Source: an uncultured Bacteroidales bacterium
GTDB lineage: Bacteria; Bacteroidota; Bacteroidia; Bacteroidales; Bacteroidaceae
Assembly: GCA_945833885.1 (NCBI GenBank)
Contig: CAMAFY010000030.1
Location: 1-35,061 of the forward strand
DNA: 35,061 nucleotides
Direction of reading: 5' to 3'
Within the stretch, counting starts at the first letter, position 1; each line of letters starts with the position of its first letter. The notes under the pieces are model-generated. The model ran no database searches. It was given only the letters and a program-made list of their open reading frames with translations, and had not been told where the DNA came from. A program made the translations under genes and the position numbers. Positions 1,998 to 35,061 of this stretch are shown here, one piece after another.

Positions 1998-2107
1998 AAG
2001 AATTTCAGGAATCTCTTTTAAGAATTTCCGGACTCACCTTTGAGTATTTCCGGAATCTCTTTTAAGAAATACAGGAATCTTCTTTAAGAATTTCCGGAAT
2101 CACCTTT
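1998..2107. repeat. Array A: five tandem 22-bp units
   Basis: Five consecutive 22-bp units start at 1998, 2020, 2042, 2064 and 2086. The core is AAGAATTTCCGGAATC with CCGGA or CAGGA at the same offset in each unit (2006, 2028, 2050, 2072, 2094). There are no spacers. The array fills most of the gap between the upstream surface-protein gene and serS and ends 23 bp before the serS ATG, so it would lie in or near the serS leader. Confidence 0.92.
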
Positions 2108-2130
2108 GAAAACATAATCTTTTACACTAT

Positions 2131-3450
2131 ATGCTGACCATAAAACAGATTGTAGACGACAAAGAAGCCGTCATCCGCGGACTGGAAAAGAAGCATTTCG
2201 CTGACGCCCGCGCCACGATAGACAAAGTACTTGAAATCGACAACCGCCGCAAGGTGGCTCAGATGGAGAAGGACGCCGTATTGGCAGAACAGAACAAGAT
2301 TGCCAAAAGCATTGGCCAACTCATGAAGCAGGGCCAGCGCGAGGAGGCGGAAGTTCAGAAGGCGCGTGTGGCAGACCTGAAGGTGCGCTCCGCACAACTT
2401 GAGGATGCCATGAAGCAGGCCGAGAATGAGCGCACACAACTCCTCTATACCATCCCTAATGTTCCATACGACCTTGTTCCCGAAGGCGTTACCGCCGCTG
2501 ATAATCTTGTGGTTAAGAGCAATTTGCGCGAATGTCGCGAGGGAGACTGCGTAGGAAACTGGGATATTAACCCGGATGTTGAGAGCGCACGTCTGCCACA
2601 TTGGGACCTTGCACGCGAATATGACCTCATCGATTTCGACCTTGGTGTGAAGATCACCGGTGCCGGTTTCCCCGTCTACAAAGGTTATGGTGCGCGTTTG
2701 CAGCGTGCCCTCATCAATTTCTTCCTTGACGAGGCACGTGCTGCGGGATATACCGAAATCATGCCTCCGACAGTTGTGAACGAAGCCAGCGGATATGGTA
2801 CGGGACAACTCCCCGACAAGGAAGGCCAGATGTACCATTGCGACCTCGATAATCTTTATCTTATTCCTACGGCAGAGGTTCCCGTGACGAACATCTTCCG
2901 CGATGTCATCCTCGAAGAGAAGGAACTCCCCGTGCGTTGCTGCGCCTATACCCAGTGCTTCCGCCGCGAGGCTGGCAGTTATGGCAAGGATGTGCGTGGC
3001 CTGAACCGCCTCCACGAGTTCTCGAAGATTGAGATTGTACGCATTGACAGCCCCGAACATTCCGATGAGAGCCACAAGGAGATGCTCGCTCATGTGGAAG
3101 GCCTGCTCCAGAAACTTGAACTTCCCTACCGAATCCTCCGTCTCTGTGGCGGCGACATGAGTTTCACCGCAGCCCTTTGCTACGACTTTGAGGTGTATTC
3201 CGAGGCCCAGCACCGTTGGCTTGAGGTAAGTTCTGTCAGCAACTTCGACAGTTATCAGGCCAATCGTCTGCACTGCCGCTATCGCCGTGCTGAGGACAAG
3301 AAGATAGAACTCTGCCACACCCTTAACGGTTCCGCCCTTGCTCTCCCGCGCATCGTTGCCGCTCTTCTTGAGAACAACCAATGTCCCGAGGGCATTCGTA
3401 TCCCCAAGGCCCTTCAACCTTACATGGGAACGGATATGATTACCAAGTAA
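2131..3450 (+). CDS. serS: Serine--tRNA ligase
   Basis: Class II aminoacyl-tRNA synthetase of 439 residues that charges tRNA-Ser (and tRNA-Sec where present) in the cytoplasm. The N-terminal 110 residues are charged and helical, as expected for the antiparallel coiled-coil arm that contacts the tRNA variable loop. Class II motifs are present: motif 1 region PPTVVNEASGYGTGQLP, the TAEVP serine-site signature, motif 2 around CFRREAGSYGKDVRGLNR, and motif 3 LNGSALALPRIVAALLENNQ near the C-terminus. Length is only slightly above the usual 420-430 residues. The ATG at 2131 gives the standard MLxIKxI-type N-terminus. A 22-bp repeat array lies directly upstream and a strong terminator follows, so the gene is probably transcribed alone or as the end of a unit. 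Confidence 0.98.
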   Translation: MLTIKQIVDDKEAVIRGLEKKHFADARATIDKVLEIDNRRKVAQMEKDAVLAEQNKIAKSIGQLMKQGQREEAEVQKARVADLKVRSAQLEDAMKQAENERTQLLYTIPNVPYDLVPEGVTAADNLVVKSNLRECREGDCVGNWDINPDVESARLPHWDLAREYDLIDFDLGVKITGAGFPVYKGYGARLQRALINFFLDEARAAGYTEIMPPTVVNEASGYGTGQLPDKEGQMYHCDLDNLYLIPTAEVPVTNIFRDVILEEKELPVRCCAYTQCFRREAGSYGKDVRGLNRLHEFSKIEIVRIDSPEHSDESHKEMLAHVEGLLQKLELPYRILRLCGGDMSFTAALCYDFEVYSEAQHRWLEVSSVSNFDSYQANRLHCRYRRAEDKKIELCHTLNGSALALPRIVAALLENNQCPEGIRIPKALQPYMGTDMITK

Positions 3451-3471
3451 ATCTGCCGGATATAACAGAAC

Positions 3472-3512
3472 AATCCCCTGGCTACCGCGAAGGTAACCAG
3501 GGGATTTCTTTT
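3472..3512 (+). terminator. Rho-independent terminator after serS
   Basis: A 15-bp stem (AATCCCCTGGCTACC at 3472-3486 with its partner at 3492-3506, one mismatch) has a 5-base loop GCGAA and is followed by a T-rich run. It lies 22 bp after the serS stop codon. Confidence 0.88.
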
Positions 3513-3523
3513 GGATTTCTTTT

Positions 3524-3699
3524 CCGGATGTCTTGTTTTCTCTCCGGATGCTTTGGATGATTTACTGGAATTTTTAGCAGTTTTTCTCCGGATGCTTTGG
3601 ATGATTTACCGGAATTCCTTGCTAATGTACTCCGGATGCTTTGGGATTATGCCCCGGCAGAGTGCGGGTTGGTTTCCGGACGTTTTGTGATTTCCGGAT
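3524..3699. repeat. Array B: 44-bp repeats with CCGGA every ~22 bp
   Basis: CTCCGGATGCTTTGG recurs at 3542, 3586 and 3630, exactly 44 bp apart. Between them a second CCGGA/CTGGA falls near the midpoint. CCGGA-type cores are seen at 3524, 3544, 3565, 3588, 3609, 3632, 3654 (CCGGC), 3676 and 3694, so the spacing is 18-23 bp and mostly 21-23. The array occupies the gap between the convergent serS and FHS permease genes, downstream of the serS terminator. Confidence 0.85.
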
Positions 3700-3743
3700 A
3701 AACCATCAGTATTTGTTCTTGCTATTTACGGCCTTTCGGGGAA

Positions 3744-5006
3744 TCATTTTCCGCGATGGCAGACGTAGAGGGCGTAGAGCATGACGGCAGCGTAGCCGAG
3801 GAGGGGTACCACAAAGGCGGTGGACATGTCGAGAACATCGGAGCAATAGGCCATAAGGAACGTTCCGATGGCGCCACCGATGGGGGTCATCATCATGAAC
3901 GATGACGCACGTTTGGTGTCGGTGGCCGAGAATCCTTTCAGGCAAATGGCGAAGATGGTGGGGAACATGATGGCCTCGAAGGCGTAGATGGCCAGCAGGC
4001 AGGCGATGCTGAGCATAGGAACACCGAGCATTCCTCCGATGTCGCACATTACGCCTGCGCTTGTCAGCACCGTTCCTATGGCGCATCCCAGCAGGTAACG
4101 TTCGGCACGCACCATGCTCATGGCAAAACTTCCGAACACGCGCGCGAGCATAAAGATGAGGAGACCTCCCATGGAGAGAATCTGTGCCGCGTCAAATTTG
4201 TCAAACGAATGCACGTCGGTCATGTAGTTGACAAAAAGACTGTTGATGGCAATCTCCGATATCTCGTAGCAGAGGAGTGCGAGGATGCCGAGTACGAATG
4301 CGCGGCGTTTCCACACGCTGAACAGTCCGTCCGCAGTATTCTGCCCCTCTTCCAGGGCGTCATCCTCGCGGATTTCGGGAAGTTGTACGCGGAGGAAGAG
4401 GAAAGCCACAACAACCACCATCGCGCCCATCAGACAATAGGGCAGCGAAAGCGAGGGATTTTCGCCGAAAAGCATGTATCCGCCAATCATAGGACCTACG
4501 GTACAGCCCAGACCATTGAAACTTTGGCTCAGGTTGAGGCGGCTTGCCGCCGACTCTTTCGCGCCCAACGAGGCGGAATATGGGTTTGCCGCCGTCTCGA
4601 GGAACGCCAATCCGCATCCTAAGACGAAGAGTGCGCTGAGGAAAATCCAGAACGGGTTGATGCTGCTGCCGGGGAGCAGTTGTCCCTCTGCCAGCATTTC
4701 ACCGGGAACAAAGGCGAAGGCGCCGATGGCAAAGAGCGTGAGACCGAGGACCACACCCCGACGATAGCCCCAGCGGGCAATGACAAGTCCGGCGGGAATA
4801 GCCATCAAACAGTAGGCGACGTACACAGAAAACTGTACCATCGACGACTCTGTGCGGCTGATATCGAGGACCTCCTGAAAATGTTTGTTGAGGATGTCGA
4901 GTACGGAGCGGGCAAATCCCCAGAGGAAGAACAGGCTGGTGATGAGGATGAACGGCACCATGTAACCCTTTCCTACAAGACGCGTTTTCGTTGACGTTGT
5001 ATTCAT
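3744..5006 (-). CDS. FHS-family (FucP-like) sugar:H+ symporter, MFS
   Basis: A 420-residue, 12-helix major facilitator protein of the fucose-galactose-glucose/gluconate:H+ symporter (FHS) family in the inner membrane. The first helix reads FFLWGFARSVLDILNKHFQ, matching the FucP first-helix signature. Asp37 and Glu137 (in AFLETAANPY) line up with the two acidic residues essential in E. coli FucP (Asp46, Glu135). A charged cytoplasmic loop (residues about 210-230) separates the two six-helix halves. Substrate cannot be fixed from sequence; fucose or another hexose is likely. It starts 48 bp after the M13 peptidase stop on the same strand, so the two are probably co-transcribed although their functions are not obviously linked. 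Confidence 0.9.
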   Translation of the reverse strand: MNTTSTKTRLVGKGYMVPFILITSLFFLWGFARSVLDILNKHFQEVLDISRTESSMVQFSVYVAYCLMAIPAGLVIARWGYRRGVVLGLTLFAIGAFAFVPGEMLAEGQLLPGSSINPFWIFLSALFVLGCGLAFLETAANPYSASLGAKESAASRLNLSQSFNGLGCTVGPMIGGYMLFGENPSLSLPYCLMGAMVVVVAFLFLRVQLPEIREDDALEEGQNTADGLFSVWKRRAFVLGILALLCYEISEIAINSLFVNYMTDVHSFDKFDAAQILSMGGLLIFMLARVFGSFAMSMVRAERYLLGCAIGTVLTSAGVMCDIGGMLGVPMLSIACLLAIYAFEAIMFPTIFAICLKGFSATDTKRASSFMMMTPIGGAIGTFLMAYCSDVLDMSTAFVVPLLGYAAVMLYALYVCHRGK

Positions 5007-5054
5007 GGTGTTTTACGGAGTATGAAAGTGGATGAATGTCCTGTAATCAACGGG

Positions 5055-7079
5055 TTACCATACCATGACGCGGTTCTTGGGAGCCACGTAGAGGGGTGCG
5101 TTCTTCTTGATGTTGAAGGCCTTGTACCAGGCGTCGATATGCGGGAGAGCGCCATTTACGCGCCAGCGTCCGATAGAGTGGGGGTCGGTCTTCGTCAGTT
5201 GGCGGATGCTTTCCTCGCGGGCGTTGTTCGCCCAGATGAGGCCGTAACTCAGGAAGAACCGCTGGTCGGGGGTGAAACCGTCGACCGTCTTCAGCGGGTT
5301 CTGCTGCATCACATTGTGCAATGCCTGATGAGCGACCATCAGACCTCCGTGGTCCGCAAGATTTTCGCCGAGTGTGAGTTCGCCGTTGCACTTCAATCCG
5401 GGCAAAGCCTCGAGGTTGTTGAAGTAATCCACCATCTTCTGCGTGCGTTCCTTGAAGCGTGTGGCATCCTCTTCCGTCCACCAGTTGTTGAGATTGCCGT
5501 CCTTGTCGTACTTACATCCCTGGTCATCGAAGCCATGTGTCATCTCATGACCGATGACAACGCCGATGGCGCCATAGTTGGCAGCGTCATCTGCCTCCGG
5601 ATTGAAGAAGGGTGGTTGCAGGATTCCTGCGGGGAAGCAGATCTCGTTTGTGGTAGGATTGTAGTAAGCGTTGATGGTTTGGGGCGTCATCAGCCATTCA
5701 TCGCGGTCGACGGGCTTGTTGACGTGCTGGGAAATGTGGTGGTCGGTGCGCCATCCTGCGGCAGCCATGATGTTCTCATAGTAACTCTTCTTCTCGTCGA
5801 TGACAAGTCTTGAATAGTCCGTCCACTTGTCGGGATATCCGATTTTGACGTAGAATGTGGAGAGTTTCTCGTGGGCTTTCTCCTTGGTTGCCGCGCTCAT
5901 CCAGTCCTGAGCGTCGATGCGTTGTCCGAGGGCAATGGCTAATTGGTTGACAAGTTCCTTCATACGCGTCTTGCTGCTCTCGGGGAAGAAGCGCTCGACG
6001 TAGATCTTTCCGACGGCTTCTCCGAGCACATTGTCGACAATGCCCACGGCACGCTTCCATCTTGGGCGGTCCTGCTCCGAGCCTTGCAGTGTTTTGCCAT
6101 AGAAACCGAAGGAAAGCGCGCGGAAATCGTCCGACATATAGTTGGCGGCATCGTCGATAAGGCGGAAGGCGGTAAAGTGTTTCAGGTCGTCGAGTGTTGC
6201 ATCGGCAAGCATCTTCTCCAAAGCATGGAGGGGCTCAACCTGGCCCACCACCACTTCCGTAAAGGCAGGATAACCCTCCATAAGGAAGTAAGTGCTCCAG
6301 TCGATGCCGGGGAAATCGGTGAGAAGTTCGGCATACGACATCTTGTGGTAGTTGGCTTCGGGGTTGCGGAGTTGCACAGCCGAATAGTTGCTTTCGGCCT
6401 GGCGGGTCTCCAGGCTGAGGATGGCCTCGGCCTTCTTCTGTGCTGAAGCCTCGTCGTCGCCGGTCATCACGAAGAGTTTTGCCACGTATTCGCTGTAGGC
6501 TGTGCGGATTTGCTCCATAGCCTCGTCCTTTTCGAGGTAGAAACTCCGTTCTCCCAGCGTCAGATGGGGCTGGAAAATCTGCACGATGTTCTGCTTTGCG
6601 TTCTTTTCATCGGCACCGCAGTAGGAGGAGATGAGCCCGGGAACGCCCAAACGGCTCAGACGGCTTTGGAGGACAAACAGTTCCTTCTTGTTCTTCGCCG
6701 CATAGATGTCGCTGAGGATTTGGCGGATAGGCTCGAAACCCTCGGCATTCAGGCGGGCGGAGTCCATGGCCAGACGGTAGAGACCGCCGATTTTCTGCTC
6801 CAGCGAGCCCTCGGCAGCCTGTTGTTTCGACAGGTCGAGGATGATGTCGCGCAGACGTTCCTGATTCGTTTCGTTGAGTTTGTTGAAGTGACCGTAGCGG
6901 CTGTGTTCGGGGGTGAGGGGATTTGCAGCCATCCAACCTCCGCCGGAATACTGGAAAAAGTCCGTTCCGGGCTTTGCCGAAAGGTCCATGTTAGCACAGT
7001 CGATGCCGGTGCTCAGACCCTGTGCCATGCAGGATGTGGAGAGCATGGCCAGAGCGGGAATGATTTGTTTCAGTGTCAT
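5055..7079 (-). CDS. M13 family (neprilysin/PepO-like) zinc metallopeptidase
   Basis: Exported zinc endopeptidase of 674 residues that should cleave oligopeptides in the periplasm or at the surface. An N-terminal signal peptide (MTLKQIIPALAMLSTSCMAQ) is followed by the M13 N-terminal signature DFFQYSGGGWM (residues 40-50). The catalytic domain carries NAYYNPTTNEICFPAGILQPP (470-490), the zinc site HEMTH at 511-515, and GENLADHGG at 571-579, which supplies the third zinc ligand Glu572 and Asp576. It ends in VMVW, the expected Trp terminus. Length and motif order are normal for the family and no active-site residue is missing. The adjacent Cys17 makes a lipoprotein possible, but the lipobox is poor. 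It is followed at 48 bp by the FHS permease. Confidence 0.95.
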   Translation of the reverse strand: MTLKQIIPALAMLSTSCMAQGLSTGIDCANMDLSAKPGTDFFQYSGGGWMAANPLTPEHSRYGHFNKLNETNQERLRDIILDLSKQQAAEGSLEQKIGGLYRLAMDSARLNAEGFEPIRQILSDIYAAKNKKELFVLQSRLSRLGVPGLISSYCGADEKNAKQNIVQIFQPHLTLGERSFYLEKDEAMEQIRTAYSEYVAKLFVMTGDDEASAQKKAEAILSLETRQAESNYSAVQLRNPEANYHKMSYAELLTDFPGIDWSTYFLMEGYPAFTEVVVGQVEPLHALEKMLADATLDDLKHFTAFRLIDDAANYMSDDFRALSFGFYGKTLQGSEQDRPRWKRAVGIVDNVLGEAVGKIYVERFFPESSKTRMKELVNQLAIALGQRIDAQDWMSAATKEKAHEKLSTFYVKIGYPDKWTDYSRLVIDEKKSYYENIMAAAGWRTDHHISQHVNKPVDRDEWLMTPQTINAYYNPTTNEICFPAGILQPPFFNPEADDAANYGAIGVVIGHEMTHGFDDQGCKYDKDGNLNNWWTEEDATRFKERTQKMVDYFNNLEALPGLKCNGELTLGENLADHGGLMVAHQALHNVMQQNPLKTVDGFTPDQRFFLSYGLIWANNAREESIRQLTKTDPHSIGRWRVNGALPHIDAWYKAFNIKKNAPLYVAPKNRVMVW

Positions 7080-7143
7080 GTTGTGGGATAATCAGAAAGT
7101 AGTGATAGTCCTTTCAGAAAAATGTTTATGAAAAAGTTGTGGT

Positions 7144-7170
7144 AAAGGTGGCCATTCCACCTTTTTTTAC
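7144..7170 (+). terminator. Small hairpin followed by T-run (weak)
   Basis: AAAGGTGG at 7144-7151 pairs with CCACCTTT at 7157-7164 around a 5-base loop and is followed by more T residues. No plus-strand gene ends here, so this may instead be a leader hairpin in the M13 peptidase transcript, whose start codon lies about 65 bp away. Confidence 0.25.
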
Positions 7171-7245
7171 GGTTGTTTGTGGCTGTTTTACGGTTGTTCG
7201 TGGCAATCTTCAAATATGGTAGAGCGGAATATGCCAAAAGCATAT

Positions 7246-7393
7246 TTGAATTTTCCTAAAAGAAATCATAGGATTTCCTAAGATTTTCCATAGGATTTCC
7301 TAAGATTTTGCTAGGATTGCCTAGGAATTACATAGGTTTTCCTAGGATTTTCCTAGGGTTTACTAAAAAAATCCATAGAATCTCCTAAAAGCC
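7246..7393. repeat. Array C: about thirteen tandem 11-bp units
   Basis: The unit TAGGATTTTCC, or a close variant such as ATAGGATTTCC, TAAGATTTTCC or TAGGATTGCC, repeats head to tail with a length of 10-11 bp (starts at 7246, 7257, 7268, 7279, 7290, 7301, 7312, 7322, 7332, 7343, 7354, 7364, 7375). Alternating units are more alike, giving a 22-bp higher period. Many junctions form the palindrome CCTAGG. The array lies upstream of the M13 peptidase start and 24 bp from array D. Confidence 0.88.
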
Positions 7394-7417
7394 ACACGCA
7401 GAAAACCCTAAAAAAAA

Positions 7418-7527
7418 GTGCGGCACTTTTGATATGGTTCTGCGGCAGTTAACCGTGTGAAGTGCGGCAGTTTCCGTTGCGTTTTGCGGTAGTTTCCGTT
7501 GCGTTTTGCGGCAGTTCTTTCGGGGCG
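7418..7527. repeat. Array D: five tandem 22-bp units
   Basis: Units start at 7418, 7440, 7462, 7484 and 7506, each beginning with (G/C/T)TGCGGCAGTT or a one-base variant. The third and fourth share TTTCCGTTGCGTT. The sequence is unrelated to arrays A and C but has the same period. The last unit ends one base before the ABC-F stop codon at 7529-7531. Confidence 0.9.
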
Positions 7528-7528
7528 T

Positions 7529-9481: not shown

Positions 9482-9617
9482 TCTTTTCTGTGGAGATGTT
9501 CTGAGGCCTTCCGCCTTTTCCACCCTGTCGCACCTGCCCTCTGGCAAAGTCAGCGGACAATGTATTTTGCAGAATCTGGGGGAAACACCGGGAAAGGCCT
9601 CTGCATAATTTTGCGCG

Positions 9618-10908: not shown

Positions 10909-12050
10909 CTGCGCATATCCAAGTGATGCCTGTGTGTGTTCTTGGGGAATAATCCCCGAATATCGGCATCCCGCTACTGTTCAGTCCGTAAAGCCTCCAT
11001 CATTGTCAGAGCCACAGTAGGCTGGCAATCATTGTTCCTGCAATCGCATGGAGGAGGTTTCCGCCTTATCCGCAGAACCTTTATCCCGAACATTCCCGCA
11101 AGCCGTACATATTATATTTGAAGCCCCCGCTTCAAGTATCGGATTCAGTAAAACTGCATCCGCCTCCTGATGGTGTAACATCCGCCCCTTGACGACGCGA
11201 TGACCGCCTCTCAGCAGAAAAAAGTTTGGCATGATGCGGATTTGCAGGCGCTCCTGGAAAAGCATCGGACGGAAAGGCGGCAAGTCGTCCACTCCAACGC
11301 CCTTCCCCCATCTTCGGATGCCCTTCGGAAGGCGTGCGGAATGTTGCATAGCAAGTATCCGTAAATCTCCGCACGTTTTTCACGTAAAAAATGCGGAAAA
11401 ATCGTGATATTCTTGTACATTACGAGAGTTTGTTGTACCTTTGCCTCGTAAACAAGAGAGTTTATGTGATGCAAAGGCTTCAGAAGAGCGCGTTGTCAAG
11501 GCAACCACCTCGTGCCAGCGCATTTCGATGGTTTGTACGGCGGAAAAAATGAGCGGGCTCCCCTCCATTGTTCCACGGGGCTATGCCACCGTCCGTCGCT
11601 ACAATATCGTACTTGATATACGCAGGCTGTGCTGGTCAGATTGGGATACTCATCAATAAATACCAACAACCGAGAATGCATGCCGTCCAATGGCGGGCCG
11701 GCGCTACGCTTTAAATGCAGCGCGGAAGACCGGATTACAAAGGGCGGTGAGCGCTCAAATCTTATCTTACTCGGAGTTGTCATCATCTTTACCAGTACAG
11801 CCTTTTTTATATACTTCCGTCAAGGTGGAGGCAACCCATTGGCCTTGTCAGGTCTTCTCCCTCTTCCCTTTGTCCGGATTCCCTGTGAACAAGGGAGAGG
11901 AATGCTCTCTGTACGTCCGGATTGACAGGGAATTCCTCCGGAAGATGACAGGAAGACTATAAATGCCGCCCCACAAAAACAACCGGAAACCTCGGCGGTG
12001 ATTAACGGAAACCACCGCAAAACTCCCCTCGTAACACCAACCCATAGGAT
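10909..12050. other. 1.1-kb stretch without a convincing protein gene
   Basis: No open frame here resembles a known family. The longest candidates are short: 11441-11659 (72 codons, overlaps the promoter), 11629-11925 (98 codons, with one hydrophobic segment LILLGVVIIFTSTAFFIYF) and 11690-11962 (90 codons). The last two overlap in different frames. A near-perfect promoter at 11413-11443 points into 11450-11800, where several short palindromes occur (for example GCGCT/AGCGC around 11710-11730). I looked for RNase P, tmRNA and SRP RNA signatures and saw none. The region may encode an unrecognised non-coding RNA or small protein, or be a gene remnant. Confidence 0.5.
11413..11443 (+). promoter_or_regulatory. 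Strong Bacteroidetes-type promoter with no assigned gene
   Basis: TTG at 11413-11415, exactly 20 intervening bases, then TACCTTTG at 11436-11443, a full match to TAnnTTTG. Expected transcription start is near 11450. The nearest recognised plus-strand gene begins 600 bp downstream, at 12051. Confidence 0.6.
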
Positions 12051-14630: not shown

Positions 14631-17450
14631 ATGACCATTCACGAAGACCTTTCCCGACGTATTCTCGTTCTCGATGGCGCCATGGGCTCACTTATTCAGG
14701 CCTATGGCCTTGAAGAGCGTGATTTTCTGTGGAATGTCGATGGGAAGTATACCGATGTTCCACCCCAAAAGGGCAACAACGACGTACTCGTTTTGACGCG
14801 CCCCGATGTCATCAGCGACATACATCGACGTTATCTTGACGCCGGTGCCGACATCATTACTACGAACACCTTTTCCGCACAACGCATATCCCTCGCCGAT
14901 TATCATTGCCAGCATCTTGTGCATGACATCAACTTTGCCGCCGCCCAACTGGCACGCCGTGCCGCAGACGACGCCATGACGGGGGACGAAGGCCGGCATT
15001 GCTATGTTGCCGGCGACGTCGGACCTACGAATACCACGGCATCCATCTCCCCAGATGTCGATGACCCTGCCGCGCGAGCCGTCAGTTATGATGAACTTTA
15101 TGCCGCCTACCGCGAACAGATAGCGGCACTCGTGGAGGGAGGTGTTGACCTTCTCCTCGTGGAGACCGTCTTCGATACCCTCAATGCCAAGGCTGCCCTC
15201 CACGCCGCCCACGATGTGTTTGCCGATATGCAACGCTTTCTGCCCGTGATGGTCAGCCTGACCGTCAACGACCGTGGAGGACACACCCTGTCAGGACAGC
15301 GCATCGCTGCATTCCTCACCAGCATCGCCCATGCCGATGTCATGAGTGTGGGGCTCAACTGCTCGTTCGGAGCGACGGAAATGATTCCTTTCCTTCGCGA
15401 AATGTCGCGTTCAAGCCGCAGCGCGGTGTCGTGTCATCCCAACGCCGGACTGCCGGATAGTCTGGGACGTTACACGCAGACACCGGAGGAAATGGCGCTT
15501 GCCGTCAGACAATTTGCCGAAGAACGCCTCGTCAACATCGTAGGTGGATGCTGCGGAACCACGCCCGAACACATCGCTGCCATTGCCGAAGCCGTCAGGG
15601 GTATGGCACCCCGCGAGACAAAGTGCGGAGAACATCAGGCGATGCTCGAACTTTCCGGACTCGACCGTCTGACGCTGACACCGGAAATGCGCTTCATCAA
15701 CGTCGGCGAGCGCTGCAATGTGGCGGGAAGCCGGAAGTTTCTCCGCCTCATCAACGAGAAGTCGTATGAGGAAGCCTGCACCATTGCCCGGCGCCAGGTG
15801 GAGGACGGTGCTATGGTTCTCGACATCAATCTCGACGATGGTCTGCTCGATACAGAGGTGGAGATGGTGCATTTCCTCAGGATGCTCGGAGCCGACCCCG
15901 AGGTTGCCCGCGTGCCTTTCATGATTGATTCCTCGCGATGGGAGGTCATCCGCGCCGCTTTGAAGTGCTGTCAAGGGAAATGTATCGTCAACAGCATATC
16001 ACTTAAAGGCGGCGAGGACGAGTTTCTGCGCCGTGCCCGCGAACTTCGTACCCTCGGAGCGGCGGTGGTGGTGATGGCTTTTGACGAGGAAGGCCAGGCA
16101 ACCACCTTTGAACGCCGCACGGAAATCTGCCAACGGGCCTACAATCTCCTTACCATCCAGGCGGGAATACGCCCGGAAGACATCATTTTCGACCCCAATA
16201 TTCTTGCCATCTGCACAGGTTTCGCCGAGCATCGCACGTATGCCCTCGACTTTATACGGGCTACGGAGTGGATACGCACAAATCTTCCCGGCGCACACGT
16301 CAGTGGTGGTGTCAGCAACCTCAGTTTTTCGTTCCGTGGAAACAACTTTTTGCGTGAAGCCATGCACGCCGTTTTCCTCTATCATGCAATGAAGGCAGGT
16401 ATGGATATGGCAATTGTAAACCCTTCATCCAAAGTCACTTATAGCGATATTCCTGAAGAATTGTTGAAATTGCTTGAGGCCGTCATCCTCCAACCTTCGG
16501 AACAGGTGGAAGAAGCCCTTGTGGCGTATGCCGAAAGCATGGTGAAGGACGACAAACAACAGGCTTCCGCTACCATCGGACGCGCTGAAACGTGGCGCGA
16601 AGCACCGCTTGAGGAGCGTCTGGACCATGCCCTTCTGAAGGGAATCGCCGACCATCTTGAGGAAGACCTCCGCGAAGCCCTCGGCGTTTATCCCACGGCG
16701 GTGGAGATTATCGAGGGCCCGCTGATGAAGGCTATGGAACATGTGGGCGAACTCTTCGGTGAGGGTAAGATGATGCTTCCGCAGGTGGTGAAGACAGCAC
16801 GGACCATGAAGAAGGCGGTGACCTTTCTGCAACCCTTCATCACTGATGCTGGTGGCGGAGAAGTGCCGCAAGAAAGCCGCCATGAGGGCGTGTTCGTCAT
16901 GGCAACCGTGAAGGGCGACGTCCACGACATCGGTAAAAACATCGTCAACGTTGTCCTCGGCTGCAACAAGTTCCGCACCATCGACCTCGGTGTCATGGTA
17001 CCTGCCGAGGCGATTGTGGAGGCTGCCGTCAGGGAGGGCGCGGATTACGTCGGACTTTCCGGACTTATCACCCCGAGTCTTGAGGAGATGGTCAATACGG
17101 CACGTGCCATGCAGGCGGCAGGACTGACACTTCCCATCCTCTTGGGCGGTGCCACCACCTCGGCGCTCCATACTGCGCTGAAGATAATGCCGGTCTACGA
17201 CGGTCCTGTGCTGTGGGTGAAGGATGCCAGTCAGATGGTTCTTGTCGCTTCACGCCTGAAACCCTTGGTGAAGTGCCTACGTGCTGCCGGCAACGACCGC
17301 CAGGCCTGCCTCAAAGCCATTGCCAACGACCCCTATGTCACGGCATGCCGTGCGGAATATGCCGCACTTGCCGACGAATACCACGCCCGCGAGAAATCGC
17401 CCCAGCGCACCATTGCCGATGCCAGGGCCAACAAACTCAATCTTTTCTAA
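14631..17450 (+). CDS. metH: Cobalamin-dependent methionine synthase lacking the reactivation domain
   Basis: Transfers a methyl group from 5-methyltetrahydrofolate through cobalamin to homocysteine. Domains in order: homocysteine-binding barrel (about 1-325) with zinc ligands Cys244 (GLNCS) and Cys307-Cys308 (GGCCGTTP); pterin-binding barrel (about 350-620; [19 protein letters not shown]); cobalamin cap and B12-binding domains (about 640-890) with DVHDIGKN, where His765 is the cobalt ligand. The protein ends at residue 939, whereas E. coli MetH has about 1227 residues; the C-terminal AdoMet-binding activation domain is absent. The end is clean, so this looks like a natural architecture and not a frameshift. 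A separate reactivation protein is expected elsewhere. The downstream flippase starts 57 bp later. Confidence 0.97.
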
Positions 17451-21835: not shown

Positions 21836-22443
21836 CAAAACTGATTTCAAAGTTCATTATCTCTTCAAAAAAATAAAGGAATGATGCCGTTTCTTACATC
21901 TGTCTTGCGGAGAAAATCACGCAAGGTGTAGGTTTATCCTACATTTTCAAAGCATTCCACACACTGTCTTACACGGAAGGATTGCCAGTATAAACAGATG
22001 ATTTCTGTGTTTTGTGCAGAGTGTGTAGGAGAAAAATGGAAAATATAATATAGGAGAGCGGAACATTGTGATAAACAATAGTAGAGAAAACTTGTTTACT
22101 CTGCCGAGCGATGAAAATGTCGGAATAAAACAACGTCTTTTATTTCACGGCATTTCCTCCCCAAAACATCCGATGTTTGTACCTCAAAGTTCCGTTCTTT
22201 TGAATGGAAAATGCCGTATTTTTGACTATGATTCTATACATGTTGTAGAGTTGTTAAGGAAATTGTTTAGACATTTTTTTGTCGTTTAATATTCGTTTCA
22301 CCTTCACCTGCATAGCGAATATCTGGTGTGCAAAGATTTTTGACTAAGGATTGAAGCATTATTATTGATAAAGGAATGACAAATGGCAACATATTTCTCG
22401 GGCGAATAACATACTCTTGAAACGTAGAAAAGGAAACAATAAT
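21836..22443. other. AT-rich 0.6-kb gap between glycosyltransferases
   Basis: No plus-strand gene is convincing. A small hairpin (TGTAGG/CCTACA, 21927-21943) occurs early on. A 63-codon minus-strand frame at 22267-22458 has a hydrophobic core (MLPFVIPLSIIMLQSLV) and could be the tail of a lost membrane or glycan gene, but I cannot assign it. The decayed acyltransferase just downstream suggests this gap is also gene debris. Confidence 0.45.
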
Positions 22444-22631
22444 ATGACAAACATACATACAAGTACTATTGGACGGCGATTTGAATACATTGACCTATTA
22501 AAAGGTTTCACCATCATTGGAATGTTTATCTATCTTTTGCATTAATCGTTTTGCTGGAGTTCCCCTTAATTTATCTGTTTAACCATTACTTGCCCTGGTG
22601 TATTGGCAAAAGAATAAATAACAAGCCATGA
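22444..22631 (+). pseudogene. Acyltransferase-3 (OafA-like) remnant with large internal deletion
   Basis: From ATG 22444 the frame reads 33 residues ending FEYIDLLKGFTIIGMFIYLLH, the N-terminal first-helix signature of membrane acyltransferase-3 proteins, then stops at TAA 22543. A second frame (shifted by two) from about 22539 reads ALIVLLEFPLIYLFNHYLPW followed by CIGKR, which looks like the last helix and tail of the same family, and ends at TGA 22629. The family is normally about 330-380 residues, so some 280 residues are missing at the junction near 22535-22545. The TGA overlaps the next gene's ATG as ATGA, suggesting the intact gene was translationally coupled to the glycosyltransferase. 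It probably once O-acetylated the glycan. Confidence 0.75.
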
Positions 22632-23979: not shown

Positions 23980-24156
23980 TCCAACGTTTTCGTTATGCCA
24001 GAAGAGTAGTGCGGAAACAAGTGAAAATTGTTTGCGTTATGACGTGGCGAAAAAACGAAGGAGGAAGTCCAACGTTTTCGTTATGCCAGATGGGCAGTGC
24101 GGAAACAAGTGAAAACTGTTTGCGTTATGCCGTGGCGAAAAAACGAAGGAGGAAGT
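23980..24156. repeat. Array E: 88-bp tandem duplication
   Basis: Bases 23980-24067 and 24068-24155 are direct copies with only a few differences; both begin TCCAACGTTTTCGTTATGCC and end ACGAAGGAGGAAGT. Inside each copy CGTTATG recurs after 44 bp, so the underlying period is 44 bp. The second copy runs up to the stop codon of the M6 protease gene. An earlier hairpin (GGGTGGG/CCCACCC, 23910-23938) lies just upstream. Confidence 0.92.
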
Positions 24157-30092: not shown

Positions 30093-31016
30093 TCATTCTT
30101 GGAAATCGATTTCCGAAAGCGTGAATTCCTTTTCCAGTTTCATGTCGTAATTGAAGCGGAACATCGATTCCCGCATCACCCGTTTCCCATTGTCCGTGAT
30201 GAAGGAATAGCGATGGCGTACAACAATGGACGAGGTGTACCAGTCGGTACTCCAACGGCCTTCAGGCTTGTAGTCCGCATATTTTTTCTTGCAGTGGCGC
30301 TGCACGTTGTCCTTGATGTCGTTGTTGCTGATGAAGCATCGCGCGGCCCCGGCCTTGATGGTCGCAATCATGCCCAGCACATCCTTGTCGCTGAGGGTCT
30401 TGGCATCGGTGGCGCAGAAGTGGAGCGAGGAGTTTGCGTAGACATAGAACACACGGATGATGAGGTTTTTGCGGGTCCATACCTGCACGAAACTGTCGTT
30501 CATGTCTATCACGGGCGAGGATTTGAATCCGCCTTTCGTGGCATTGCCCATGAGTTGTCCGATGATTCGTCTTGCTTCCACGCTGTCAGTTTTTGACAGG
30601 TGGTAGACATATTCCACGCTGCTTACGGGAAGTGTGTCGGGAATGACCGTGCCGATGTTGATGAGCGACGTGTTGTTGACAATCATGTTTGAGGGAAATC
30701 TTTTGGGGTCGGAGAAGACAATGAGTTGTCCGTTCTCGATCTTTCCCTGTCCTTTGTCGACGATGCTTTGGGCATGCGCCATAAATTCGGCATGGGTTTG
30801 TCCGAATTTGAAGTCGAGTGGTAGGGTGTTGAAACTGCTGTCGGCCATGTTCGCAGCCATGATAAGGTAGGCTGCCGTGTCCACATTCTGCAATGTCTGC
30901 TCAAGCGTGAGGGGCTTGGCGGCGTTTTCTTCAGAATTTTTGTGGTTGGAATGGCAGGCTGTGAATGCCAGAGACAGGGCTGAGCAGAACAATCCTATGG
31001 TTATTATCTTTTTCAT
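30093..31016 (-). CDS. Predicted lipoprotein, function unknown
   Basis: A 307-residue protein with a signal sequence and a lipobox-like end (MKKIITIGLFCSALSLAFTAC), so probably lipidated at Cys21 and anchored in the envelope. The mature part begins with a short polar linker (HSNHKNSEENAAKP) followed by mixed alpha/beta sequence with no repeats or catalytic signature that I recognise. Features visible include IENGQLIVFSDPKRFPSN (93-110) and a basic segment QRHCKKKYADYKPEGRW (residues 245-261). It lies between the WYL regulator and the T9SS cargo genes on the same strand but with gaps of 321 and 614 bp, so it is probably its own transcription unit. Confidence 0.8.
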   Translation of the reverse strand: MKKIITIGLFCSALSLAFTACHSNHKNSEENAAKPLTLEQTLQNVDTAAYLIMAANMADSSFNTLPLDFKFGQTHAEFMAHAQSIVDKGQGKIENGQLIVFSDPKRFPSNMIVNNTSLINIGTVIPDTLPVSSVEYVYHLSKTDSVEARRIIGQLMGNATKGGFKSSPVIDMNDSFVQVWTRKNLIIRVFYVYANSSLHFCATDAKTLSDKDVLGMIATIKAGAARCFISNNDIKDNVQRHCKKKYADYKPEGRWSTDWYTSSIVVRHRYSFITDNGKRVMRESMFRFNYDMKLEKEFTLSEIDFQE

Positions 31017-31337
31017 TTCTATGGTGTGGAGCCTGATGCGTGTCTTTTTTTGTTAGATTCCATCCTCCGTTTTCTCTCGAGGGCTTGTCGTTAGCGTGTT
31101 ACACTTGCTTCGTCTCTGCCCGTTTGGCCTGACGAAAACGTTGGATTCCTTTGATTTTCCTTGCCGGAATTACAGTCGTTTTCCGGGGAAGGGAATGCTG
31201 TGGATGAAGGGGAGTGGCGAACTCCGCGGCTTGATTCTACGGAGATTTTGAGTGGAAAAGAGGCCGTAAGACGCTGAAACGTATCCTAAACCAACCCAAA
31301 ACATTTGCGGTGGCAATTTACAGAACCCACCCATCAG
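31017..31337. other. 321-bp gap, nothing assigned
   Basis: No open frame of note and no clear TAnnTTTG element for the lipoprotein gene. GGATT/CCGGAATT/CCGGGG elements at 31142-31180 have about 20-23 bp spacing and faintly recall arrays A and B, but there are too few copies to call. Confidence 0.4.
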
Positions 31338-32297
31338 TCATTGACTTCCGCAGAGCGAGGGGTCGTAAAGTTTCAGAGCGTCGAGGATAAGTTCGTGCAT
31401 TTCATCTACCACCCATGAAGGTTCTATCACTTTCAGGCGGTCGCCCTGGGAGAGAACCTGGTGGAAGAAGTCGATGGTGGGCCTCAGGCAGACCTCAAAG
31501 TCGGTATATTCCGCTGTCTCGTTCACAATCCGCTGGGAATGATGCAGGGGAAGGTCCTGCAGATAATGGCGTGCCATGCCGTATGCCCTCACGATGACAG
31601 GCTCGGGGTCCGTGGCATTGTCGATGTAGGCTCCGAATGCGTTGCTGAAATATTCGTGGGCATCGAATCCTGCTTCCATCTCAAACAGGCGGTCACCTAA
31701 GGTAAGATCGCGGATGCGGTCAAAGGCGAACATGTGGAGACACGCCTCGCGGTTGCTGAAAACATCGTCGTTGTTGCCGTAAATGTAGTATTTCCCCAAC
31801 AGATACCAGCGGCTTTTGAAGTACTTTACGCAGTAAGGTTCTATCTCATATTGCTTCTTTTCCTGCTGTCCATACTTCTGATAGGTGAGGAAAAGGCAGA
31901 GGTTGGAGTGCATGGCCTCGAAGATTGTCTTCAAGTATTCCACGTGTATGGGGATATGGTCGAGCATGATCCGATGCTGCAATGCCAGTTCTCCGCTGAT
32001 GATGTGTCCGATGGAGAAGGCCGAAAGCATCCATGCCTGCACGGTGTCCTTTTCGAGGATTTCCTCATTCTTTATATAATATTGGAAGCCTGTTCCCCGT
32101 TTACAGGCGATTTCAATGCCGAAGATGTCGTGGATAGCCTCGCGGTAACGGGTAAAAGTGGAGCGCGAAAGGGGCTGTCCGTCGCCAAGTCTGTTCTTCT
32201 GCCATTGCAGACTCAGTTCCTTTAACGGGACAAGACGGTCGCGACGGAGCGTTTCTATAATCCAAATGTATTCGCGTAGAATGGTACTGGTTTTCAT
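31338..32297 (-). CDS. WYL-domain transcriptional regulator
   Basis: Cytoplasmic DNA-binding protein of 319 residues. The N-terminal 70 residues form a helix-turn-helix (LSRSTFTRYREAIHDIFGIEI, 43-63). The WYL ligand-sensing domain lies at about 120-200 with IEPYCVKYFKSRWYLLGKY (152-170) and the closing FAFDRI (190-195). The C-terminal WCX-type domain occupies 230-305 (VIVRAYGMARHYLQ, VLSQGDRLKVIEP). WYL proteins sense small molecules or nucleic acid and regulate defence, stress or metabolism. It has a good promoter, divergent from that of the small T9SS protein gene at 32488, so it may control that gene or itself. No defence gene is nearby. Confidence 0.9.
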   Translation of the reverse strand: MKTSTILREYIWIIETLRRDRLVPLKELSLQWQKNRLGDGQPLSRSTFTRYREAIHDIFGIEIACKRGTGFQYYIKNEEILEKDTVQAWMLSAFSIGHIISGELALQHRIMLDHIPIHVEYLKTIFEAMHSNLCLFLTYQKYGQQEKKQYEIEPYCVKYFKSRWYLLGKYYIYGNNDDVFSNREACLHMFAFDRIRDLTLGDRLFEMEAGFDAHEYFSNAFGAYIDNATDPEPVIVRAYGMARHYLQDLPLHHSQRIVNETAEYTDFEVCLRPTIDFFHQVLSQGDRLKVIEPSWVVDEMHELILDALKLYDPSLCGSQ

Positions 32298-32321
32298 GTT
32301 TTATATGCGCATAATCAACGG

Positions 32322-32353
32322 CAAATGTACTGATTTCAGGGCTAAAAGGCAAA
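32322..32353 (-). promoter_or_regulatory. Promoter of WYL regulator gene
   Basis: On the minus strand TTTG (plus 32350-32353, CAAA) is followed after 20 bases by TACATTTG (plus 32322-32329), a full match to the Bacteroidetes consensus. Expected transcription start is about 18 bases before the ATG at 32297. Confidence 0.65.
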
Positions 32354-32424
32354 TATTGCGGTACAAAAAGGGTAGAAAATCTTAAAAAGTGCACGCTTTT
32401 TTCTCTTTCTGCGGTTTATTGTCG

Positions 32425-32432
32425 TATATTTG
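32425..32432 (+). promoter_or_regulatory. -7 box for small T9SS protein gene
   Basis: TATATTTG matches TAnnTTTG and lies 56 bp before the ATG at 32488. A -33 element is not clear; T-rich sequence is found around 32395-32410. Confidence 0.5.
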
Positions 32433-32487
32433 CCGCACAAAATCTCGAAAATTCACATAGAAATTATCAATAATTCTTAAAAAGCAG

Positions 32488-32967
32488 ATGAAAAAAAGCC
32501 TTTTTGCAATTTTGTCCTTTGCCTTCTCTTTTGCCGCAATGGCACAGAATGCCGCCTGCACATTGGTGGTCACCGACCGTCAGGGCGGGTCATGGGCCAT
32601 GGCTCTTTCGGAGGTCAACCGCATTGCGTTGGGTGGCGAGAGCCTTGACATCCATTGCATTTCGGGGCAACCGATAACGTCGTTTGCCTATGCCGATGTC
32701 GCCCACATCCAGTTTCCTCTGGATTATGCGGGCATTTCCACCCCTCTGTTGCAGGCCCGGATGCTGAAAGCCACCGTCGTTGGCGACGAACTCCTCGTTT
32801 CGGGACTTGACGAAAGCCGCAGCCTTCCCGTCGAGGTCTACGATGCCCGTGGACGTTTGCTCAGCCGTTCCAGCCTCCGTGGTGCGGGAAGCGTCGACAT
32901 CTCGGCCCTCATTCCCGGTGCATACATCGTTAAAGCCGATGCGCAGACCGTGAAATTCCAAAAGTAA
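32488..32967 (+). CDS. Small secreted protein with T9SS sorting domain
   Basis: A 159-residue protein with a signal peptide (MKKSLFAILSFAFSFAAMAQ) and a mature part of about 139 residues. The last 70-75 residues (LLVSGLDESRSLPVEVYDAR, SVDISALIPGAYIVKADAQ, VKFQK) have the T9SS type A sorting-domain pattern of GxYxVx and a terminal basic strand. That leaves only about 65 residues of passenger sequence (NAACTLVVTDRQGGSWAMAL), which is short for a T9SS substrate. It has its own -7 box and diverges from the WYL gene. Confidence 0.82.
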   Translation: MKKSLFAILSFAFSFAAMAQNAACTLVVTDRQGGSWAMALSEVNRIALGGESLDIHCISGQPITSFAYADVAHIQFPLDYAGISTPLLQARMLKATVVGDELLVSGLDESRSLPVEVYDARGRLLSRSSLRGAGSVDISALIPGAYIVKADAQTVKFQK

Positions 32968-33199
32968 ATCCGTACAATTCCATTCGTGAATCCTGGCGGA
33001 ATCCTTTGCTGCCGGCCGTTCTATACGCCTGGGGAATCAGCAGGGACAGGTGCTGAAAACCGTATTTTGCGCTTCCAGCAATCTGTCTTCCTCCCTAAAA
33101 CTACCTGTGGCAGGAAAAACGTCACCCTCAATAATACGTAACATACTCGGTGGTGATTTATGGAAACCACCTGCAAAAACCTTTGAAAATACAAATAAG

Positions 33200-34546
33200 A
33201 TGAAACATATTTTCCGTTCCCTTACCCTTTTTGCCCTGAGTCTCACATGTGGGCTCAGCGCTTTCGCACAGACCAACCCCAACCGTATGCTCGTCAACTC
33301 CGAAGCCGGCTATAAAGGTTTCCTGGTTGAGCGTGTGCAGGACATCACCTTCGCCACCGTGGAAGGCGAGGTTAAGGCCGATGTGGAGGTCAAAAGCGTC
33401 GATGAAGAACTGATTGTCGTCAGCATTACGCGCAGCGAAGCCTGCCAGGGTTTCCGTCTTTCCGTCATGCCCGCCACGGTTGCCGACACCTATTATCCGC
33501 ATCCCGACTACATGATTCAGAAGATTGAGTCTGAGGAACCCACACTCTATTATCAGGACTTCCCCGATGGCCAGATTTCCGGCGCCGTATTGCAGGACAA
33601 TACCAAGTACAGTGTCGTCACCGTCGGCTACGATCAGTATGGCATCGCCTGCGGTCTTTGCCGTGCGGACTTCACCACTCCCCGCGCAGACATTGTAGGA
33701 TCGCCCAAGGTGACCACCACCGTTAAGGAACTTGACAAGTATACCTATACCCTTCATTGCGAGCCCAATGCCGATGTTGCCGGCTATGCCATCGTGACGG
33801 CCGAAAAGGGTGTGTGCCAACAGCAGTGCGCCATGTTCCATTTTGCCAACTTCGGTGACATGGTACGCACGTGGGGCATCGTCAGCGAACCGGCAGAAGC
33901 CCGCGATTTCACCTTCAATGACCGTCAGCCCGGCACCGATTACGAGTTCTTTGTGCAGGCTTGGGATGCCCAGGGAACGTATGTCGACTGCGACACCATC
34001 AGCATTCACACCCCGGGTCTCGGTGACAGCGGCGATGCCTACGTGGACATCACCCTCGGAAACTACGTACTCGCTGATTGGGGTGGCGAGATGCTCCCCT
34101 CGCAGTTCATCACTTTCACCCCCAACGAGCATACTTCGGCCTACCGTTATTCCGTATATTATGCCAAGAGTACCGGCGACTACATAGGATATGACGACTA
34201 CAAGGACGAGATTCAGCAGGAACTCTGCTCCGAAGCACCCATGGCCGGCATGGCAAATTGGTTCTTCTATGAGCCCTTGACCACCGACTTCCAACTCAAT
34301 CCCAACACGGAATACGTGGTCATTGCTGCCGGAAAGAACGGTGATGGTGTGTGGGGAAAAATCAATGAATACCGCTTCACCACACCTTCCTCGCCGTCTT
34401 CCGCAAGCCCCGTCATGGTGAAGTCGGCCTCTGTCACCTCCGAATCCGGCATCGTCCAGCGTCCTTACAGCCCCGCTGTGCGCAACAGCAAGGGCGACGT
34501 CAGCGTACGCTTGAAGTCAAAGGGCCTTGTGCTGAGCGCAAGATAA
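33200..34546 (+). CDS. Secreted Fn3-like repeat protein
   Basis: A 448-residue exported protein. I chose the ATG at 33200 (MKHIFRSLTLFALSLTCGLSAFAQ) for its signal peptide; the frame is open from 33050, but the extra 50 residues look non-coding. The mature protein contains beta-sandwich segments of Fn3 character, each with a typical late-strand pattern: YSVVTVGYDQYGIACG (residues 144-159), TDYEFFVQAWDAQGTY (about 245-260) and NTEYVVIAAGKNGDGVWG (about 366-383). No catalytic motif is visible. The C-terminus (SVRLKSKGLVLSAR) is Ser/Arg/Lys-rich and not a clear T9SS domain, so the export route beyond Sec is uncertain. It follows the small T9SS protein by 232 bp. Confidence 0.85.
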   Translation: MKHIFRSLTLFALSLTCGLSAFAQTNPNRMLVNSEAGYKGFLVERVQDITFATVEGEVKADVEVKSVDEELIVVSITRSEACQGFRLSVMPATVADTYYPHPDYMIQKIESEEPTLYYQDFPDGQISGAVLQDNTKYSVVTVGYDQYGIACGLCRADFTTPRADIVGSPKVTTTVKELDKYTYTLHCEPNADVAGYAIVTAEKGVCQQQCAMFHFANFGDMVRTWGIVSEPAEARDFTFNDRQPGTDYEFFVQAWDAQGTYVDCDTISIHTPGLGDSGDAYVDITLGNYVLADWGGEMLPSQFITFTPNEHTSAYRYSVYYAKSTGDYIGYDDYKDEIQQELCSEAPMAGMANWFFYEPLTTDFQLNPNTEYVVIAAGKNGDGVWGKINEYRFTTPSSPSSASPVMVKSASVTSESGIVQRPYSPAVRNSKGDVSVRLKSKGLVLSAR

Positions 34547-34796
34547 GCGTTCCGGCAGCGCAAGACATCCGTTCGGGGAACCGCCATCCTACGGTTCCCG
34601 AGGCTTTTCAACGCGTCTTGAAAACATACGACGGCCGCCCTCGACATAGAGCGTGGCCGTGCATGATGCAACGGGAACCAGCGACCGGAATGGAATAGGG
34701 CCGTGTTTCCTTGAAGACATCATTGCACCCCTGCCTTTCCGTCTCCGTCGTCGCATATCCGTTCTTCGCTGTCGTCCTTCGGCAGCACGATAAAAA
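34547..34796. other. Non-coding region after Fn3-like gene
   Basis: No gene recognised. A short hairpin GGGAACCG/CGGTTCCC (34576-34599) followed by a weak T-rich tract may act as a first terminator for the Fn3-like gene. Beyond 34843 the window holds only another terminator and a repeat up to its right end. Confidence 0.45.
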
Positions 34797-34843
34797 GCGC
34801 CGCAACATCCCTTTGATCGGGGAATGTTGCGGCGCATTCTTTT
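34797..34843. terminator. Strong bidirectional terminator
   Basis: GCGCCGCAACATCCC at 34797-34811 pairs with GGGAATGTTGCGGCGC (34820-34835, one bulged base). A T-run follows on the plus strand and an A-run precedes it, so it can terminate from both sides. Confidence 0.85.
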
Positions 34844-34953
34844 TGACTGTATTCCAATGGTTTATGGACGTTTGTCAAATATTCACTTTAACCCGATTCG
34901 CACCGGGTCAATCCCATTGCCGATAGGGTGGAATGAAAGGTTCGTGACACCAT

Positions 34954-34992
34954 AAAAAACTACGGAATCCCCGAAAAAGGGAATTACGTAGT
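34954..34992 (-). terminator. Minus-strand terminator for a gene beyond the right edge
   Basis: ACTACG at 34959-34964 pairs with CGTAGT at 34987-34992, and AAT-CCC pairs with GGG-ATT inside (one mismatch, one bulge). Six A residues at 34954-34959 become a T-run on the minus strand. This suggests a minus-strand gene ends to the right of the window. Confidence 0.5.
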
Positions 34993-35006
34993 CTCTATCA
35001 TAAACC

Positions 35007-35061
35007 TCCGATGTTCACGCCCGAAACCTTTGGGGTTTGTGGTTGAAAGTTCCGATGTTCA
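35007..35061. repeat. Array F: start of a 44-bp repeat, cut by window edge
   Basis: TCCGATGTTCA occurs at 35007-35017 and again at 35051-35061, exactly 44 bp apart. At the half period CGAAACC and TGAAAGT are also aligned. Only one full unit is visible. Confidence 0.6.

Follow-up and report, generated by a model that had tools for sequence, protein, structure and literature searches.

Introduction

Cooperative operator arrays of the ArgR, Lrp/AsnC and ParR type consist of dyads about two helical turns apart, to which cooperating dimers bind, and a CRISPR (clustered regularly interspaced short palindromic repeat) array consists of 24–48 bp repeats separated by spacers. Here we describe intergenic arrays of differing sequence that share a spacing of 22 bp, in a stretch of 35,061 nt from an uncultured Bacteroidales bacterium of the Bacteroidaceae (contig CAMAFY010000030.1, assembly GCA_945833885.1; the whole stretch is referred to hereafter as the window) and in related genomes. 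The closest described systems, as set out in the available excerpts of the sources cited here, are of three kinds. Repetitive extragenic palindromic (REP) sequences are palindromes of 20–40 bp tagged at one end by GTAG or CGTC; stems as short as 5 bp are on record among REPs, as are CGTC repeats from Bacteroidetes (PMC3733652); in bacterial interspersed mosaic elements (BIMEs) the palindromes stand at regular spacing in alternating orientation (PMC2817692). BrickBuilt of Porphyromonas gingivalis is a single 23-nt repeat element (PMC4596501). Helically phased A-tracts are aligned with start sites in Synechocystis (PMC9825172), and an 11-bp periodicity occurs in many bacteria (PMC4132750).

REP/BIME sequences are the closest in form to the arrays described here, being likewise high-copy, intergenic, species-specific palindromes in regularly spaced groups of mixed orientation. 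The present arrays differ in their cores of 15–17 bp (18 bp for the pattern of one genome, G116), in an exact centre spacing of 21–23 bp and, in one genome (G113), in their phasing with promoters. Their resemblance to BrickBuilt lies in tandem units of ~23 nt and a Bacteroidales host; the difference is that BrickBuilt, with its leader, tail and terminal repeats, is a single element, whereas here unrelated sequences lie on one ruler, mostly of 22 bp. Their dyads of 15–17 bp and linkers of 6–7 bp fall outside the dimensions of CRISPR arrays, and membership in the BrickBuilt, CRISPR or REP/RAYT class (RAYT, REP-associated tyrosine transposase) is not supported. With phased A-tracts and UP elements they share an ~11-bp A/T phasing aligned with the promoter, but add sequence-specific dyads at every second turn in hundreds of copies. 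With operator arrays they share dyads about two turns apart, whereas here there are hundreds of sites per genome, the genes concerned are functionally unrelated and the dyads are wholly different between species. No account of species-specific 22-bp dyad arrays in Bacteroidaceae, or of such repeats in Prevotella/Bacteroides, appeared among the entries listed by literature searches covering open PMC papers. We propose that the arrays are helically phased, cooperative protein-binding arrays near promoters, a reading to which we give an even chance.

Intergenic DNA of the window's genome carries a 22-bp ruler

The window is contig C30 of a 3.11-Mb draft genome (G000), of which the window and 20 further stretches, 409 kb in all, were examined; nine of the 20 were chosen for repeat hits and 11 were not. 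Arrays were detected with Tandem Repeats Finder (TRF) and a lag-based detector, the counts of the latter covering coding and noncoding DNA, and genes were taken from crude open reading frame (ORF) calls made for this analysis. The detector found 86 arrays in the 409 kb and none in one block-shuffled copy, the single shuffle that served as its control. The period was 22 bp in 31 arrays, 44 in 15, 66 in six and 88 in four (56 of 86). Autocorrelation of intergenic sequence, which the initial annotation of the window had put forward as the check on its 22-bp spacing, gave the peak genome-wide, at lags 22, 44, 66, 88 and 110. The ruler is a property of the genome and not of selected loci, because the 11 stretches not chosen for repeats were equally peaked (z 18.7 at lag 22 and 18.5 at lag 44) and because lags 22 and 44 persisted after all detected arrays had been masked (z 15.3 and 11.2). 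At the level of single noncoding stretches of at least 80 bp, lag-22 z exceeded 2.33 in 60 of 198.

The commonest repeat in G000 is a 15-bp dyad, AAANNNCGGNNNTTT, for example AAAGTGCGGCACTTT. Allowing at most one mismatch, AAAGTGCGGNACTTT had 189 forward and 151 reverse matches (340 in total); its reversed control had none. Among 112 adjacent core pairs no more than 100 bp apart, 74 were spaced exactly 22 bp, seven 44 bp, two 21 bp and one 23 bp, in a count that tolerates up to four mismatches, at which most single hits are due to chance (59% of 427 lay inside called ORFs). The 7-bp linkers between cores spaced 22 bp apart were variable in sequence. Orientation, judged from the CGG centre of the nearly symmetric site, was the same in 50 of the 74 pairs and opposite in 24, so that tandem copying alone is insufficient to explain the spacing. 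The two half-sites were nearly independent, perfect dyads numbering 19 of 115 as against 12.5 expected (p 0.023).

Related species use other dyads on the same ruler

In 80 named Bacteroidaceae-like loci, which are loci around serS, 31 of 74 noncoding arrays had a period of 22 (28 arrays) or 44 bp (three), making 22 bp the commonest noncoding class, and lags 22 and 21 were both prominent in intergenic autocorrelation (z 14.1 and 13.2). Same-genus genomes (20 stretches) peaked at lag 21 (z 12.7), six of their 29 noncoding arrays having period 21 and three period 22. In 20 stretches from 12 other families of the order (273 kb), lag 22 had no peak (z 0.9) and one of five noncoding arrays had a period of 22 bp. 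Ten stretches from other families of the class yielded four arrays, of which none was of the 22-bp kind, and a modest peak at lag 21 (z 5.1). Arrays were absent from 10 stretches elsewhere in the phylum and from 50 kb of Escherichia coli. The 22-bp arrays are rare or absent in the families sampled outside Bacteroidaceae.

Judged from its sequence in four genomes, the dyad differs between species. Of 40 other same-genus genomes, 39 had the G000 core at background (three matches or fewer) and one, G102, had 48 matches near the G000 core, mostly AAGGTGCGGTACTTT among the matches listed. Some of the G102 matches are paired at 72–73 bp. In G113, AAAGTTGTACAACTTT had 168 sites, as against at most four in each of four other genomes; AATNGTCNNGACNATT had 96 sites in G117 and 3 to 12 in five others; and GTTTCCNNNCNNGGAAAC had 38 forward and 39 reverse sites in G116, as against at most eight per strand in five others. 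Many dyads of the other species are also spaced 22 bp apart.

Elements of G113 are triples with mirror-image arms

G113, a Bacteroidaceae genome assembled from horse faeces, is the source of named locus L056; 593 kb of it was examined in 30 stretches, 16 chosen near listed sites of dyad family A and 14 not. It held 65 clusters of three dyad families (A, B and C), 55 of them with exactly three dyads. Counts in chosen versus other stretches were 24 versus five for family A, 10 versus seven for B and five versus 14 for C; the density of family A is therefore inflated by the choice of stretches. Spacing was invariant within families, at 22 bp in 49 of 49 cases for A and 23 bp in 63 of 63 for B and C together. 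The 6-bp linkers were variable, with a mean identity of ~0.6 as against 0.36–0.38 for shuffled letters, and the middle dyad was mismatched in 31 of 55 triples. Triples are flanked on both sides by outward-facing arms of 22-bp period, which fade with distance (107 arms; 105 in a second set) and are common to all three families. A model of the right arm scored +27.6 on left arms read outward and −39.2 on their reverse complement. In G000, mirror-image AAACATCGGACTTCTTTG arms flank two cores at L013 ~15640–15700 and at L015 ~190–250, resembling this architecture.

Of the 52 genes listed downstream of elements in G113, 20 were scanned; 19 of these had a Pfam match, and the 20 had nothing evident in common. 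A single regulon was rejected on this ground, and the unrelated functions favour a general architectural role.

Elements of G113 are in helical phase with promoters

The Bacteroidetes −7 box is given as TAnnTTTG in the excerpted text of PMC7366714. Context was counted for the 51 of 57 G113 clusters with at least two dyads that had both neighbours. In 42 of 57 cases a box separated the element from the start codon; such intervals, 11.4 kb in all, contained 47 boxes, and 3.5 kb of dyads contained none. The triple-to-box distances fell into groups ~11 bp apart (peak period 10.7, R 0.57; 0 of 5000 jittered sets as high). When gene calls were ignored and boxes within 220 bp were taken, 47 faced outward and seven inward, and the outward set gave R 0.60 at 11.0 bp (0 of 3000 nulls). 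The phase held when boxes with similar surroundings were dropped (n = 26, R 0.58, p = 1.5e-4) and when each distance was counted once (n = 35, p 1.0e-4). Distances from triple to start codon in G113 had no 11-bp phase (R11 0.17). The G113 elements thus have the ~11-bp phase to the promoter that characterizes a helically phased promoter-upstream element; among the genomes examined, array–promoter phase holds for these elements only. Apparent phases between G000 cores and boxes (22 outward, p = 0.0054; 11 inward, p = 0.0012) were set aside: several cores of one array are not independent, and TAnnTTTG is spelled by the core itself, which accounts for the five boxes at a distance of 24 bp.

Proposed protein binding along one helix face

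The exact spacing, the drifting linkers, the flipped orientation, the unrelated dyads and the G113 promoter phase lead us to favour binding of protein along one face of the helix. Each array would be a row of sites bound by a dimeric protein, or by a family of such proteins, lying on one helix face with one dimer per two turns (22 bp, or 21 in some relatives). The dyad recognized would change between species, and several dyads may coexist in one genome. Rows would grow partly through local duplication and dispersal, with selection holding the spacing while linkers drift. Once bound, they may shape the DNA upstream of promoters by bending, wrapping or forming a boundary, which would require a fixed helical angle to RNA polymerase. 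The spacing, the variable linkers, the species-specific dyads, the intergenic position and, for G113 alone, the promoter phase are observed; the protein, its oligomeric state and any effect on transcription are inferred.

The initial annotation had ascribed the common spacing to a constraint on length, such as helical phasing over two turns. This view is supported by the preservation of 22 bp while linkers vary and orientation flips, and is strengthened by other dyads on the same ruler in other species and by the ~11-bp promoter phase in G113. The initial annotation had also offered a repeat-expanding process as the generator. Some arrays consist of near-identical units without a dyad, which indicates that local duplication also contributes; the pairs in opposite orientation lie beyond tandem copying alone.

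A more far-reaching version, which is doubtful and put forward tentatively, is a sequence-specified chromatin of Bacteroidaceae, in which every species would have a rapidly changing dyad code of its own. Architectural proteins of one or more kinds, themselves evolving fast, would read this code and assemble outward from a core of three to five dyads along the mirror-image arms, with a dimer on every two turns, and the helical angle between the assembly and adjacent promoters would be constant. If binding of this kind does occur, a major family of gut bacteria would organize its intergenic DNA by species-specific site arrays on a common helical ruler. This would offer a link between DNA geometry, a protein and promoter activity that can be tested genome-wide, and would be a case in which hundreds of sites and the protein that binds them co-evolve rapidly.

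Several results weigh against protein binding as the explanation. No binding protein was identified in this analysis. Palindromic arrays (p < 0.05) numbered 11 of 56 in G000 and 15 of 33 in relatives, leaving a non-palindromic majority, and the half-sites covary slightly more than independent ones would. The core period in G113 is 22 or 23 bp depending on the family. Within the G113 phase data, family B alone is weakly phased (n = 11, R 0.29), the eight boxes beyond 200 bp are without phase, a leaning to one phase is present in the seven inward boxes as well (p 0.021) and two of the seven control words reached low p values: TTTG, itself a part of the box (p < 0.001), and TA..GTTT (p 0.011, n = 7). 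Only four of 25 G000 core arrays face promoter words, too few for phase, and pooled relatives had no array–promoter phase (n = 9, p = 0.28; n = 19, p = 0.36; genomes G114–117, n = 6, p = 0.87). In G113 the more distant A/T phase described below falls short of significance once boxes are de-duplicated (P 0.31 and 0.21).

One alternative is that the ruler is mutational: during replication or repair, intergenic sequence of any kind would be duplicated in tandem, some two helical turns at a time, leaving neutral arrays. Near-identical units of arbitrary consensus in L012 (17973–18137), L016 (14701–14864) and L014 (3148–3214), and higher-order periods of 44, 66 and 88 bp, as from unequal exchange, are what this process would leave. 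Duplication would not, however, yield core arrays that hold 22 bp despite differing linkers and flips. With no departure among the 112 G113 spacings and with the promoter phase in that genome also against it, we regard a purely mutational origin as unlikely.

A/T phasing upstream of promoters

The A/T content upstream of promoters was analysed with ORF-linked, de-duplicated TAnnTTTG boxes, dropping those in or next to arrays. At −12 to −110, A/T was phased at ~11 bp with the box in G000, in G113, in 79 named loci, in same-genus genomes and in G114–117 (each P ≤ 0.0015). Neither the set from other families of the order (n = 54) nor the sequences from the class and phylum (n = 50; nearest P 0.066) had this phase. 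In G000 (n = 34 clean promoters) the phase extended to −240 to −110 (P 0.003; 0.0005 with arrays masked) and to −370 to −240 (P 0.009; 0.0175 with arrays masked). The far phase was weak in the named loci (P 0.035 at −240 to −110, 0.33 at −370 to −240), gave P 0.033 at period 10.1 and then 0.75 in same-genus genomes, and was absent in G114–117 (P 0.13 and 0.39). The A/T spectrum of the arrays themselves had an 11-bp excess in G000 (z 3.4) and none in the 80 named loci (z 0.7).

These data bear on a second alternative, in which DNA shape alone is at work: phased A/T tracts would, without a dedicated protein, curve the DNA or position plectonemes close to promoters, and the alpha subunits of RNA polymerase would read the nearest tracts. 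Proximal phasing in five of five Bacteroidaceae sets and none of two sets outside the family fits this, as do the phased A-tracts aligned with start sites reported for Synechocystis (excerpts of PMC9825172). Shape alone leaves unexplained the species-specific dyads of 15–17 bp and a repeat of 22 rather than 11 bp. Alpha subunits are not expected as far out as −240, which also weighs against it, and we judge it improbable as the full account, on a par with the mutational origin.

Relation to dispersed repeats and RNA hairpins

A third alternative, dispersal of REP/BIME-type repeats or of miniature inverted-repeat transposable elements (MITEs), would make the spacing part of the anatomy of a copied element. 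The initial annotation held that the arrays are not copies of one element. That does not apply throughout, as an 88-bp family has at least 51 matches in G000 and the scattered G113 triples have common arms. BIMEs, as regularly spaced alternating palindromes (in the excerpted account of PMC2817692), offer a precedent, and of two same-genus genomes with intact Y1 transposase genes, G010 has four and G102, with its 48 core-variant matches, has one. Against dispersal, the ruler occurs with unrelated sequences both within and between species, and promoter phase is unexpected for a mobile repeat. In the incomplete genomes available, G000 has one unusual Y1 match, ~510 bp from the nearest core, G113 has one match, interrupted by a stop, in a 3.2-kb locus that lacks cores, and G114 has none. 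No GTAG or CGTC tag recurs beside the cores of G000 (115 cores), G113 (177) or G116 (five); GTAG/CTAC lies at the centre, not the end, of 51 of 51 family B cores, and CGTC/GACG lies inside, again not at an end of, the four G117 cores seen. Dispersal is thus distinctly improbable as the source of the spacing. A RAYT as driver in G000 and G113 was rejected, no transposase gene having been found beside the cores in these incomplete genomes and no flanking tag being present, as was one mobile family as the whole explanation of the arrays, since the ruler occurs with unrelated sequences.

The relation to the Porphyromonas MITE class that the initial annotation had suggested could not be upheld, since BrickBuilt, according to the excerpts of its description (PMC4596501), is a single 23-nt repeat and many sequences are found here. 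Two published BrickBuilt terminal repeats matched the window at best in 10 of 12 bases, at four places and without a chance baseline; one of the four falls inside the array at 35002–35060.

RNA-level hairpins in untranslated regions, serving as terminators, stabilizers or small RNAs, are very improbable: the cores are palindromic and could form short stems, the arrays are intergenic, and a terminator-like hairpin precedes the element at just five of 38 G113 gene ends (crude finder), so that the elements may be transcribed, but the half-sites covary only slightly, the middle dyad is mismatched in most G113 triples, the element mostly has the −7 box on its downstream side, a 15-pair hairpin precedes the window array at 3535, and Rfam scans of six sources gave no family at any array, the only known RNA recovered being Bacteroidales-1 RNA at 11625–11808, outside the arrays.

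Arrays and other features of the window

None of the arrays is assigned to a strand. The arrays of the initial annotation were found again by TRF and the lag detector at slightly shifted coordinates, and its proposal that differing sequences share a 22-bp ruler agrees with the measured periods of 22, 44, 22 (in 7252–7309), 22 and 88 bp; a seventh array, at 22164–22222, had been overlooked.

The first array (1981–2112; TRF, lag detector and inspection of the sequence) has about six 22-bp units of TTTCmGGAATC-nnCTTTAAGAA and sits between a gene ending at 1968 and serS, which starts at 2131. The second (3535–3644, its start given as 3535 or 3537; TRF, lag detector) has a 44-bp period (2 × 22) with CCGGATG/CCGGAAT motifs. 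A 15-pair hairpin at 3472–3506, from a scan that found no more hairpins than in shuffles, precedes it, and weaker related sequence continues to ~3699. The two copies of an 88-bp unit (4 × 22) at 23980–24156, detected by both programs, belong to the dispersed family.

Three arrays carry the G000 dyad core. At 7415–7516 (lag detector, as period 22 over 7441–7516, and core search) a perfect AAAGTGCGGCACTTT occupies 7415–7429 and the other units are degenerate. Core search gave 22164–22222, with cores at 22164, 22186 and 22208 exactly 22 bp apart and 7-bp linkers that all differ, and 35002–35060 at the contig end, with cores at 35002, 35024 and 35046, also 22 bp apart, the middle one matching seven of nine fixed bases. 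The last array, taken initially as one of 44 bp only, is therefore on the 22-bp ruler too. The arrays had been considered mutually unrelated, and their sequences do mostly differ, but 7415–7516 and 35002–35060 have a dyad core in common. Isolated cores in the window are weak evidence (18 listed versus ~6 expected in shuffles), and the signal lies in the 22-bp groups.

The array at 7252–7388 (TRF, lag detector), of CCTAGG/AGGATTTCC type, had been counted with the 22-bp set, whereas its period is mainly 10–11 bp, with a 22-bp component at 7252–7309. CCTAGG-type arrays of ~10-bp period (multiples 20, 30 and 40) form a second spacing class within G000, occurring also at L011 2529–2609, L013 12336–12410, and L015 9742–9816 and 10824–10951. 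In the named loci the second commonest noncoding class is of period 14 (11 of 74 arrays, mostly heptamers), seen in L036, L049, L055, L069, L074, L102, L108 and others. Repeats of 85 bp occur in same-genus L153, L154 and L158, with a common GCGCAAGGCGAGAG-like stretch in at least two genomes.

A 66-bp coding repeat lies at the contig start (1–141), its letters reading as rich in Gly, Ser and Thr. At 22430–22620, between two glycosyltransferase genes, is a short remnant that we take, by eye, to resemble the start of a membrane acyltransferase. The Bacteroidales-1 RNA lies on the forward (+) strand and scored 94.5 bits; Rfam describes this family as a suggested 6S RNA of Bacteroidales.

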